A stretch of 64,000 nt of DNA from an uncultured Alphaproteobacteria bacterium (GTDB lineage Bacteria; Pseudomonadota; Alphaproteobacteria; Rs-D84), in assembly GCA_947175875.1 (NCBI GenBank), contig CAMWON010000005.1:1-64000 (forward strand). The letters are read 5' to 3'. This document shows positions 4,742 through 64,000 of the stretch, piece after piece. The position numbers were made by a program, and so were the translations under genes. Position 1 is the stretch's first letter. Every line of letters begins with the position of its first letter. The notes below the pieces were generated by a model. The model was not told where the DNA came from and searched no databases. It worked only from the letters and a program-made list of their open reading frames with translations.

Positions 4742-4769
4742 TTGCAAATCTTAACTTTTATGCTATAAT
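4742..4769 (+). promoter_or_regulatory. sigma70-like promoter for leader copy 1
   Basis: TTGCAA-N16-TATAAT immediately upstream of the structured leader. Confidence 0.6.
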
Positions 4770-4775
4770 TCACAG

Positions 4776-4950
4776 TGCATCGGGTGATTACCGATGTGAG
4801 GCTTCAAAACCTCTTACGAGCTTTAACTCCACAACCGGTTGGAGGGTTGCGAATATATTGAATAAGCAACGCTATTCTCGTAGTAGTTTTGAACCTCCAA
4901 CCGCCCTTCATCACGGCGGTGTTTTTTATTTGCAAAAAACAACGGAGGAT
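4776..4950 (+). promoter_or_regulatory. structured leader RNA, subclass I, copy 1
   Basis: P0 CATCGG/CCGATG; hairpin GAGG-cTTCAAAA-CCTC; loop pairs TTTTGAA (4887-4893); TACGAG(4815-4820):CTCGTA(4877-4882); GGTTGGAGG(4837-4845):CCTCCAACC(4894-4902); terminator-like ACCGCC/GGCGGT plus T6; SD GGAGG 4944-4948. Confidence 0.85.
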
Positions 4951-4953
4951 AAA

Positions 4954-5232
4954 ATGCAAATATATGTTGATGCAAAATGTTTTGGCAATGCAATGCGGCA
5001 TGGACGCAGCAATGCCGGAATAAAAAAACGCGATGTTGCGAAGATTTTTGGAATGACAGCGCATGATTATAATCGTATCGAAGCGGGACGCAAAATATGG
5101 CCGGGGAACTTGATGCTGCGGCTGATGACATTGGCGTTTTTGCAACTGCGCACGCGGCGTGTTAACGGTTCGTCTGGGATGAAAACATTACAGACCGACC
5201 CGGATGCGGCGATATTTGTTGATGCCGATTAA
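4954..5232 (+). CDS. small HTH (XRE-like) DNA-binding protein, 92 aa
   Basis: ATG preceded by GGAGG; KRDVAKIFGMTAHDYNRIEAGRKIWPG helix-turn-helix pattern; the track ORF starting at 4858 runs through the leader. Confidence 0.75.
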   Translation: MQIYVDAKCFGNAMRHGRSNAGIKKRDVAKIFGMTAHDYNRIEAGRKIWPGNLMLRLMTLAFLQLRTRRVNGSSGMKTLQTDPDAAIFVDAD

Positions 5233-16180: not shown

Positions 16181-16400
16181 TCTGAGCGGGGGCTTTCCCT
16201 GCTCGGGGTGTCGAAACCCGGAATACTGCGTTCAAACAAGAACGATAAAAAATTACTCCAACGGATTTATCCGGTTGGAGGGCTGTGAATAATGCGCATT
16301 TGTTGCGCACCAATAAGCACACTATACAGTATTATAGTTTCGAACCTCCAACCGCCTGAATTTTTTCAGCGGTTTTTCAATTCGCGAAAAAAAGGAGGAT
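16181..16400 (+). promoter_or_regulatory. structured leader RNA, subclass I, copy 2
   Basis: P0 GAGC../..GCTC; hairpin CGGG-gtgTCGAAA-CCCG; loop pairs TTTCGA (16338-16343); AATACTG(16222-16228):CAGTATT(16327-16333); CTCCAAC(16256-16262), GGTTGGAGG(16273-16281), CCTCCAACC(16345-16353); AACCGC/GCGGTTTTT; SD GGAGG 16394-16398. Confidence 0.87.
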
Positions 16401-16404
16401 TTGA

Positions 16405-16884
16405 ATGAAAACAATCATAATCAGCGGCCTGTCAGTCATCGCCGCGTTCACACAGGCGCATGCCGAATACAATTGTTGTGGAAAATGCCCGTACGGCACC
16501 AGCGCATCCGTATGCACGGAAAACTGTTGTCACGCAAAATACGGCGTAATAGGGGGACAAACAAGATACAGCGACCCGGACAATAACGGCGTAATCACCA
16601 TAACAAAATACACCGACACAGTTACATGCGCCACCAGCGCCAGTGGCTCAAATTTTGTCAGATGCGGCGTGCAAAATTCTTACATCTGCGCCCAGGGCTA
16701 TTACGGCTCACCAACACTGCTTAACAAAACTTGCACAAAATGTCCGTCATCCGGCGGCGTCGCCGGAACAACAACCGGCACCGGCGCAACGAAAATAACG
16801 GAATGTTATATCCCGGCGGGCACTGCATTTTCAGACACCACCGGCGCCGGCACATATTCGGAAAACTGTTATTACAGCGAATAA
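16405..16884 (+). CDS. secreted Cys-rich protein (GYYG / CYxPxGTxFSDTTGxGTY family)
   Basis: Signal peptide MKTIIISGLSVIAAFTQAHA; GYYG..C..CP; C-terminal TECYIPAGTAFSDTTGAGTYSENCYYSE. Confidence 0.8.
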   Translation: MKTIIISGLSVIAAFTQAHAEYNCCGKCPYGTSASVCTENCCHAKYGVIGGQTRYSDPDNNGVITITKYTDTVTCATSASGSNFVRCGVQNSYICAQGYYGSPTLLNKTCTKCPSSGGVAGTTTGTGATKITECYIPAGTAFSDTTGAGTYSENCYYSE

Positions 16885-21096: not shown

Positions 21097-21121
21097 AAAA
21101 CGCCCGTGCGGGCGTTTTTTA
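21095..21121. terminator. Rho-independent terminator (convergent)
   Basis: aaaaaacgcccgtgcgggcgttttttag. Confidence 0.85.
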
Positions 21122-21259
21122 GTTTGAATAATAGCATTTGTCGGAATAGGTTCCGCTGCCGGTGGAATCGCTGAATGTCGGTCCCGACGGCAGATAACAT
21201 GACGTTATGGACGTTGCGCTGGCCACGCCGATAATGGCGGCGGTTAATAATTTTTTCAT
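21119..21259 (-). CDS. 46-aa minimal member of the Cys-rich secreted family (absent from the ORF track)
   Basis: Translated by hand: MKKLLTAAIIGVASATSITSCYLPSGPTFSDSTGSGTYSDKCYYSN; SD GGAGG 21265-21269. Confidence 0.75.
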   Translation of the reverse strand: MKKLLTAAIIGVASATSITSCYLPSGPTFSDSTGSGTYSDKCYYSN

Positions 21260-21261
21260 TC

Positions 21262-21470
21262 AAACCTCCTTTTTTCAAAAGAATGAAAAAACCGCTGAAA
21301 AATTCAGGCGGTTGGAGGCTTGAAACTATCTTATAAATAGCGGGCTTATTCAAAATATTCGCCACCCTCCAACCAGTTTTAGATTGGAGATACACATGCA
21401 TGCTATCGCGATGCATCGCGTTATAAGAGAGGTTTCAAGTCCTCATTCGGGGAATGCCCCCGAACAATAA
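21262..21470 (-). promoter_or_regulatory. structured leader RNA, subclass I, copy 3
   Basis: Minus strand: P0 TTCGGGG/CCCCGAA; hairpin GAGG-acTTGAAA-CCTC; loop pairs TTTCAA(G) (21319-21325); TCTTATAA:TTATAAGA; CTCCAATC, GGTTGGAGG (21366-21374), CCTCCAACC (21310-21318); AACCGC/GCGGTT; SD. Confidence 0.87.
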
Positions 21471-42041: not shown

Positions 42042-42135
42042 TATATTTAACCGCCCATTGTGGCGGTTGTTTTTTTCTTGATATTGTGTACGAGATTTAT
42101 TCATTGTCTTTATAAATTTATTTTTTTATAATACC

Positions 42136-42395
42136 CAAGAATTCACAGGGATCTGAATTCAGGGACGTAAGAAATCCCATACAACATCGATGCAGTAATG
42201 CATTGAATCCGCACAATAGCGGCGCAAATGCGCCCGTTATTATATACCCCGCACTTAAACTGTCGGGGAGCCGTCGGCTATACCACAGGGCATGCCCAAA
42301 GGCCGACGGGGTCATTATGTTGTATGATTTTCTTAACTCCCCGACTGCCAATTCCCTTGGCGGTCATTTGTTTTTACCAAACAAAAAGGAGTTGG
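42136..42395 (+). promoter_or_regulatory. structured leader RNA, subclass II, copy 1
   Basis: GGGA-cgtAAGAAA-TCCC hairpin; loop pairs TTTCTT (42329-42334); CATACAACAT(42178-42187):ATGTTGTATG(42317-42326); GTCGGGGAG(42262-42270):CTCCCCGAC(42337-42345); GACTGCC/GGCGGTC; SD GGAG; TTGTCT-N17-TATAAT promoter upstream. Confidence 0.88.
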
Positions 42396-42398
42396 AAA

Positions 42399-43223
42399 TT
42401 GAAAAAAATCACCATAACATTAGCGGCGCTAATGGAAATAACCGGCACAGCCTATGGTGCCTGGGACACAAGTACGCGCATTGACGGCGTCCACCTGTCA
42501 AGTTGCACATCAAAATATATTGATGTAAATGCAATAGAAAGCCTTAACTACGAAGATAACGCCTGGAAACTGGTTATGGGGCGCAAAAACGGCTGGGGAG
42601 GAAGTAGCTGTACTCTAACCATGACCGGTGAATGCAGTAAAGCGCTTATCGGTATAATGGGCAAGGAAGACTTTGATAGTGCCTCTATAGATGGGACGCT
42701 AACCTCAAGTATATCCTGTGCATGCAATTCTAATAGTGATTGTGTAACGGGATTTAAATGCAGCCCAGCAGGCTCCGGCCAAAAATACGGCTTTTGCACA
42801 CAAATTTCAAATTTTTGCACCACAGACAGCCAATGCGATAACGACAAAGGCTATGTATGTGTAAACAAAGCATGCACACAAAAGTGCACCATAAACACAA
42901 AACCGGATGATACTGGTTGGGAAATAGCTGCGCGTGATACTTCTGATTATTATAACTTTCCGATGATTGAAAAAAGCTCTACCTATAAATGCTCTTCGGC
43001 CGGCAGATGGACCGGAACAACAGCTTACCGTTGCGCCGCACATTACTATGGCGCGCCGACATCTGCCAGCTCAAAATGCAGTCGCTGTCCGGACTATCCG
43101 GGTCCGGCCGAAGCACCCGCAGGCTCGACAAAAATAACGGATTGCTATTATCCAAGAGGAACGGAATACAACGATTCCACAGGAGCTTTTAAAATTATCG
43201 GCGGCGACTGTCATCATGATTAA
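42399..43223 (+). CDS. secreted Cys-rich family protein (TTG start)
   Basis: GGAG then TTGAAAAAAATCACC; signal peptide KKITITLAALMEITGTAYG; C-terminal CSRCPDYPG...TKITDCYYPRGTEYNDSTGAF. Confidence 0.75.
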   Translation: MKKITITLAALMEITGTAYGAWDTSTRIDGVHLSSCTSKYIDVNAIESLNYEDNAWKLVMGRKNGWGGSSCTLTMTGECSKALIGIMGKEDFDSASIDGTLTSSISCACNSNSDCVTGFKCSPAGSGQKYGFCTQISNFCTTDSQCDNDKGYVCVNKACTQKCTINTKPDDTGWEIAARDTSDYYNFPMIEKSSTYKCSSAGRWTGTTAYRCAAHYYGAPTSASSKCSRCPDYPGPAEAPAGSTKITDCYYPRGTEYNDSTGAFKIIGGDCHHD

Positions 43224-63048: not shown

Positions 63049-63072
63049 AGCGCCCCAAACGGGGCGTTTTTA
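63049..63072. terminator. Rho-independent terminator between convergent genes
   Basis: agcgccccaaacggggcgttttta. Confidence 0.82.
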
Positions 63073-63570
63073 ATTTTGGTAATAACAGGCGTCCGTATAT
63101 GTGCCGCTGCCGGTGGTGTCGCTGAAAGTGGTGCCGGACGGCAGATAGCATGCGGTAATTGCGGTTGCGCCCGCCAGGGCGGTTGTGCCGTAAACGCCGC
63201 CCGATGACGGACAGCGCGTGCATGATTGCCCGCTGCCGTAATATCCCTTCTTGCACTGGTATTCGCATGAGGCTTTTATTGCGGTTGTTTTGCATCTTAC
63301 CTGATAATTTTGACCGCTGACGCTTGTCCATAAGGTGCCCGGGCACTCGGTCGGACAAGTCGCTGGCTCAATTGGATCTATCGGGTCGATTATTAGAGAG
63401 GAGCAGCCTGCCTGTGCGCATGTTTCACTGCTGCTGCGGCAGCAGTTTGTTTCGCCTTCCATAATCGGGCACATAACCGTGTATGCGCCGCCGCATGTGC
63501 GGGCGCCGGCATCGTTTGCCAGTATGATGCCGACAACGGCCCCGCATAATAAGGTAATTGTTTTTTTCAT
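63070..63570 (-). CDS. secreted Cys-rich family protein
   Basis: Signal peptide; CEYQCKKGYYGSGQSCTRCPSSGGVYGTT..ITACYLPSGTTFSDTTGSGTYTDACYYQN. Confidence 0.8.
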   Translation of the reverse strand: MKKTITLLCGAVVGIILANDAGARTCGGAYTVMCPIMEGETNCCRSSSETCAQAGCSSLIIDPIDPIEPATCPTECPGTLWTSVSGQNYQVRCKTTAIKASCEYQCKKGYYGSGQSCTRCPSSGGVYGTTALAGATAITACYLPSGTTFSDTTGSGTYTDACYYQN

Positions 63571-63572
63571 GA

Positions 63573-63840
63573 TTTCAAATCCCTGTTTTTGTGTTAAACA
63601 AAACGCCGCCTTGGAATTGGCGGCCGGGGATTTCAGAAAATCATAACATAAAATGACCCCGTGACTTTTGGGTAATCCCTGTTATATGGTCACGGATCCC
63701 CGACCGGTTAGAATCGGGTGATATAAAACACACGGCGCATCATTGCGCCGACGTATTTTGTCGGATTCAGTGCGTACCACCGCACCGTTATGTTATGGGA
63801 TTTCTGAGGTCCCTGAGCCAACATCCCTGTTGATTCAGTG
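63573..63840 (-). promoter_or_regulatory. structured leader RNA, subclass II, copy 2
   Basis: Minus strand: CAAC-agggat-GTTG; GGGA-cctCAGAAA-TCCC; loop pairs TTTCTG; CATAACATAA:TTATGTTATG; GGTCGGGGAT:ATCCCCGGCC; GCCGCC/GGCGGC; GGGATTT SD region; TTTACT-N17-TATACT upstream. Confidence 0.88.
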
Positions 63841-63910
63841 GTTAGTATATAAATTGTGTGCCGTTAAGTAAAGGATAAAAAATCCCCGCTGTTTGGCGGG
63901 CGTTTTTTAT

Positions 63911-63944: not shown

Positions 63945-64000
63945 TTGGTAATGGGAAACCATTACTGGGCTTAGTAACCCATAACATTTGGTGTCAGTGA
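63945..64000 (+). promoter_or_regulatory. partial structured leader RNA, cut by window end
   Basis: GGTAATGG-gaaa-CCATTAC (P0) then GGG-cttagtaa-CCC and CATAACATttggtg, matching the 5' order of subclass II. Confidence 0.6.

Follow-up and report, generated by a model that had tools for sequence, protein, structure and literature searches.

The 64,000-nt stretch of DNA considered here (the window; positions 1 to 64,000 of contig CAMWON010000005.1) comes from the 953-kb genome of Candidatus Enterousia, a tiny, genome-reduced gut bacterium. Near 4.9 kb, a gene for a small helix-turn-helix (HTH) protein is preceded by a structured leader, the 4.9k leader, and related leaders stand before other genes of the window. 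A central segment of the leader, strand 2, can pair either with strand 1 on its upstream side or with strand 3 downstream. Strand 3 in turn runs into a hairpin and is complementary to the Shine–Dalgarno (SD) sequence of the gene. We suggest that the leader is probably a cis-acting three-strand RNA switch built from an antisense-RNA module like those of C4 RNA and sRNA-Xcc1 (Rfam family RF02221). Its parts are as follows.

4764–4769, +, −10 box TATAAT, by direct reading and consensus scan
4777–4797, +, H1, the 5′-terminal hairpin, from the fold
4798–4813, +, hairpin H2, GAGG-CTTCAAAA-CCTC, the loop being a1, the 5′ strand of helix P1
4815–4820, +, b1, the 5′ strand of helix P2, pairing with 4877–4882 and covarying
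4827–4836, +, strand 1, CTCCACAACC, pairing with strand 2
4837–4845, +, strand 2, GGTTGGAGG, which starts with GGT
4846–4870, +, hairpin P4, with a conserved GAATA..AATAAG internal loop common to RF02221 loci
4872–4886, +, hairpin P5, the loop of which (4877–4882) is b′, the 3′ strand of P2
4886–4893, +, a′, the 3′ strand of P1, GTTTTGAA
4894–4902, +, strand 3, CCTCCAACC, able to pair alternatively with strand 2, the SD or the GAGG of H2
4894–4927, +, strand 3, hairpin and T-run together, CCTCCAACCGCC-CTTCATCAC-GGCGGT-G-TTTTTT
4900–4920, +, terminator-like hairpin, ACCGCC-CTTCATCAC-GGCGGT, with ACC common to strand 3
4921–4940, +, helix P6, the T-run at 4922–4927 paired with an A-run (A6) at 4934–4939
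4944–4948, +, SD GGAGG, complementary to strand 3, by direct reading
4954–5232, +, downstream gene, starting with ATG, for a 92-residue HTH protein (Pfam HTH_31, E = 1e-4, under the curated cut-off)

Promoter and transcription start are consensus-based placements. Transcription would begin 6–8 nt downstream of the −10 box, that is, at H1, and the position of the box directly upstream of H1 supports the switch reading. A TATAAT-like box is present in 119 of 151 copies, most often 26–28 nt upstream of the core.

The initial annotation of this DNA had described five leaders in which strand 3, at its 3′ end, doubles as the 5′ arm of a GC hairpin with a T-run behind it. Direct reading bears this out, with the T-tract interrupted or displaced in the 42k and 63k leaders. 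The T-run was also said to be able to pair with an A-run just before the SD, and T/A complementarity is indeed read in all five. The other four leaders, with a sixth, are listed here.

16205–16381, +, 16k leader copy; strand 3 and hairpin at 16346–16372, the hairpin (16.35k) reading ACCGCC-TGAATTTTTTCA-GCGGTTTTT; gene at 16405–16884, signal-peptide-like and Cys-rich
21283–21444, −, 21k leader copy; strand 3 and hairpin at 21292–21317, the hairpin (21.3k) reading ACCGCC-TGAATTTTTCA-GCGGTTTTTT; gene at 21119–21259, 46 residues, signal-peptide-like
42135–42398, +, 42k leader copy of group B; hairpin (42.35k) GACTGCCAA-TTCCC-TTGGCGGTC, then ATTTGTTTTT; strand 2 GTCGGGGAG, strand 3 CTCCCCGAC, SD GGAGTT; gene at 42399–43223
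63571–63850, −, 63.6k leader copy of group B; hairpin GCCGCC-AATTCCAA-GGCGGC, then GTTTTGTTT; strand 3 ATCCCCGGCC, SD GGGAT; gene at 63070–63570
63948–64000 (start approximate), +, sixth leader copy, running past the window end; strand 3 AACTCCAGCC, SD GGGAGTT

A covariance model, R1, was built from eight hand-trimmed leader copies; these trimmed sequences were used only for model building and for the eight-sequence pair counts, in which P1, P2 and P4 covary. R1 finds 55 matches in the genome at E < 0.01, one of them (C2:111371, partial, 63 nt) doubtful. An alignment of 55 own-genome copies is the basis of the covariation tests. Helix 1:2 is 93.4% paired, with 20 double changes versus 5.1 in shuffles; helix 2:3, which is absent from the aligning model, is 94.6% paired, with 25 versus 6.4; and the hairpin is 96.6% paired, with 44 versus 11.8. 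Each of the three exceeds all shuffles for both paired cells and double changes. Strands 1 and 3 thus both pair with strand 2, and both pairings covary. Double changes are likewise in excess in P1 (129 versus 38.7) and H2 (28 versus 9.1). In 97 copies from other genomes, helix 2:3 is above shuffles for paired cells and double changes, not for pair types.

Helix 2:3 is mostly 9–12 bp long (median 10), with at least 9 bp in 52 of 55 copies and at least 8 in 53; the median drops to 7 when strand 2 is paired with the strand 3 of another copy. It overlaps the hairpin arm by at least 2 bases in 46 of 51 copies. The proposal that 2:3 pairing competes with the hairpin is therefore supported, both by the covariation of the three helixes and by their physical overlap. 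Since there are about 60 copies, since every one of the 34 congeners checked has the leader (see below), and since 1:2, 2:3 and the hairpin each covary, the structure is not a matter of chance.

The evidence on the SD side is also copy-specific. Strand 3 pairs with its own SD at −8.78, as against −8.12 with the SDs of other copies, and none of 2000 permutations is as good. CA precedes GGRG in 31 of 55 copies of the CTCCTG class versus 2 of 62 of the CTCCA class (p = 4e-11). T-run:A-run pairing has a value of −3.8 kcal/mol within a copy versus −2.1 with others (0 of 2000 permutations). A three-way junction, in which 3:SD and T-run:A-run pairing enclose the hairpin, is the minimum-energy fold in 88 of 110 copies, and own combinations of the junction parts fold better than chimeras. 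It follows from the copy-specific T-run:A-run pairing that the T-run is constrained in part by structure rather than by terminator function. The initial annotation had left control as translational, transcriptional or both. As judged from sequence and folds, translational locking by 3:SD and T-run:A-run pairing is well supported, and transcription attenuation at the hairpin and T-run is possible, its weaker standing reflecting the terminator scores given below.

The relation to sRNA-Xcc1 places the leader in a wider setting. RF02221 matches the strand 2-to-3 segment of the 4.9k leader at 35.1 bits and five of the 20 leader loci scanned. In the whole genome it matches 16 places at E < 0.005, 10 of which fall on R1 copies at E < 0.01; the six that remain show the leader anatomy on reading, two of them (C3:45020 and C6:4949) being weaker R1 matches. 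In a sample of the phylum, RF02221 matches occur in 55 of 398 genomes. The best 25 loci found elsewhere, at least one of which belongs to the same class as the window, share the H2/a1, b1, P4, P5, a′ and 2:3 parts. Most RF02221 loci that were read lie upstream of a gene, and a domain scan of nine downstream proteins gave three Bro-N, two SymE, one KilA-N, one P22_AR_N, one Phage_pRha and one without a match. The complementarity of a1/b1 to a′/b′ is 13.5 versus 9.6 in shuffles for own leaders that bear an open reading frame (ORF), and 15.4 versus 10.3 for the 25 loci elsewhere. The leader thus resembles an antisense-RNA module of the sRNA-Xcc1 or C4 type, in which 2:3 is the closing stem, an affiliation that goes beyond what the initial annotation had envisaged. 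In four RF02221 loci (L221, L223, L232 and L234), a second hairpin with a T-run lies between a1/b1 and strand 2; it is possibly another terminator. At the gathering threshold, tRNA alone was matched by Rfam in the window and no leader family. Rfam matches at 16k and 42k (CRISPR repeats, microRNA and leader models) were set aside as chance-level.

The proposed switch would work as follows. In state one, a1 and b1 would pair with a′ and b′, forming P1 and P2, while strand 1 holds strand 2. The free strand 3 would then capture the SD and complete the three-way junction with the hairpin and the T-run:A-run helix, blocking translation; the hairpin and T-run may also stop some transcripts. In state two, strand 2 would pair with strand 3, which would free the SD and open the lower half of the hairpin, so that the gene is expressed. 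We infer the direction of the switch and the occurrence of termination, and likewise a descent from a phage-type antisense module to a host cis leader. The trigger is perhaps an RNA with matching a/b sequences acting in trans.

Several observations weigh against this proposal. The best own-genome RF02221 score is 46.7 bits, so that all matches fall below the gathering cut-off of 53, and homology rests on the repeated coincidence of matches and on the shared anatomy. The C4 model, RF01695, has no match in the genome at E ≤ 5. The covariation shuffles preserve column make-up, not relatedness, and shared ancestry is incompletely removed. In nested folding, structures with 2:3 are less stable than those with the hairpin by a median of 10 kcal/mol; thus, the ON state depends on a helper, a pseudoknot or kinetics. 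Lastly, four of the five window hairpins are weak terminators. By a d'Aubenton-Carafa-type score with simplified hairpin limits, the 4.9k, 16k, 21k, 42k and 63k leaders have values of −15, −7, +4, −21 and −16. A simple consensus scanner passes over the 4.9k hairpin, the 9-nt loop of which is longer than the scanner allows.

These scores bear on a rival account, in which the switch is purely translational: the hairpin and T-run would serve as structure within an SD-sequestering three-way junction and would not terminate transcription. The copy-specific T-run:A-run pairing favors it, as does the weakness of the five hairpins relative to others in the window, where 23 hairpin sites score above +20. 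Against it, 65% of ORF-bearing own copies score above 0 as terminators and no shuffle does, and 15 of the 27 copies without a called gene keep a T-run of at least 5. We consider this account plausible, if less probable than the switch proposed above.

A ligand-binding riboswitch, with the GAATA..AATAAG loop of P4 and the junction sensing a small molecule or a protein, would explain why the P4 loop is strongly conserved among variable stems and why one leader type precedes many genes. The same loop is found in RF02221 loci before phage antirepressor and SymE genes, where the presence of a1b1/a2b2 repeats suggests an antisense mechanism, and no Rfam riboswitch is matched in the window at gathering threshold; a riboswitch thus seems unlikely. 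Nor do we give much credence to the idea that the main role of the copies is to supply trans-acting RNAs, processed at strand 2 in the manner of C4, with secondary effects on the downstream gene. In its favor, GGT is usual at the start of strand 2 across copies, resembling GGW, the RNase P site reported for C4 RNAs (PMC5320573), although the same bases are also required for pairing. ORF-less copies exist as well, three with a/b sequences matching those of the next gene-linked copy. Yet each SD matches its own strand 3 and each A-run its own T-run in a copy-specific way.

The three ORF-less copies lie directly upstream of gene-linked copies with near-identical a/b (C5:75416/75610, C3:14710/14968 and C3:19265/19530); the pairs may reflect local duplication or matched trans action. 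Four other ORF-less copies (C1:106121, C1:224837, C4:16132 and C5:112004) stand beside a gene-linked copy with unrelated a/b, have a different P5 region and are perhaps a separate subtype.

The genomic total of about 60 copies comprises the R1 set, the six places that RF02221 adds to R1 at E < 0.01, and the window's two copies of group B. By R1 search, the leader is present in 34 of 34 congeners checked and, mostly at low copy number, in the majority of the other genomes of the order, though not in every one. The class- and phylum-wide searches used strict filters, so their counts are lower bounds: at least 21 of 385 genomes in the class sample, 17 of the 21 being outside the genus with 1–6 listed matches each, and at least three of 398 in the phylum sample, one of the three being a weak match beyond the class. 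The core motif occurs, among others, in Candidatus Enterousia and in many alphaproteobacterial metagenome-assembled genomes from animal guts. Two IMG/VR viral contigs, L206 (12040–12197) and L207 (788–945), each carry an Enterousia-type copy, with equal scores.

Among 124 copies with a called start, the downstream proteins are signal-peptide-like by a crude rule in 71 (median 184 residues, 6.6% Cys), short (≤130 residues) in 49 and of other kinds in four. These class counts are approximate because the start finder mis-called at least two copies: at 16k and 21k it chose an upstream TTG, and the proteins of these two were read directly instead. Ten downstream proteins were compared with Pfam at E ≤ 0.01, giving three HTH matches (only one above the curated cut-off), one C-5 cytosine methylase and one outer-membrane barrel; of the other five, four matched nothing and one matched only Sushi, below threshold. 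The C-5 cytosine DNA methylase gene is preceded by the leader copy L071 (C2:59003, −).

One may go further and picture a phage immunity-type module taken over by the host lineage to give about 60 leader switches, each specific to its gene; ORF-less copies would act in trans on leaders of shared a/b, and the whole would form an RNA network that controls secreted and DNA-binding proteins across the genome. This is a speculative extension that we put forward tentatively. If the switch reading is true, the Rfam “sRNA” family represents the central part of a longer leader structure, a derived form of which serves a genome-reduced gut lineage as a common regulatory element (about one copy every 15–17 kb in this genome), and one RNA fold links phage antirepressor control to host gene control. 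It would also yield testable predictions for Rfam annotation and for a leader that locks translation and perhaps transcription.

Among known systems, sRNA-Xcc1 is the closest to the Enterousia leader, sharing the strand 2-to-3 segment, the P4 loop, P5, a′, the 2:3 stem and the upstream a1/b1. It precedes symE in integron cassettes of Xanthomonas (PMC12444791). The literature describes it as a trans-acting small RNA, unlike the cis leader proposed here. RF02221 loci outside Enterousia also differ in having C4-like a1b1/a2b2 repeats, often before genes for phage antirepressors or SymE. There, a2/b2 close to the start codon or ribosome-binding site gives 12.1 versus 8.6 in shuffles, whereas the own ORF-bearing leaders show no excess at the ribosome-binding site of the gene that follows (7.7 versus 8.0). 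Conversely, strand 1, strand 3:SD and the T-run are above shuffles in Enterousia and hardly or not so in the loci elsewhere.

The C4 antisense RNA of phages P1 and P7 acts via its a′/b′ loops at ribosome-binding sites (PMC5320573). A group derived from C4 is present in multiple copies in Acinetobacter baumannii, as the leader is in Enterousia. The leader differs from C4 in having the anatomy of a cis switch instead of an a2/b2 target at the SD. In satellite phage P4, the CI RNA pairs with two flanking copies of its complement, seqA and seqC, leading to transcription termination (PMC4825925). The arrangement is the same in the leader, where strand 2 is complementary to strands 1 and 3; the likeness is one of shared principle only.
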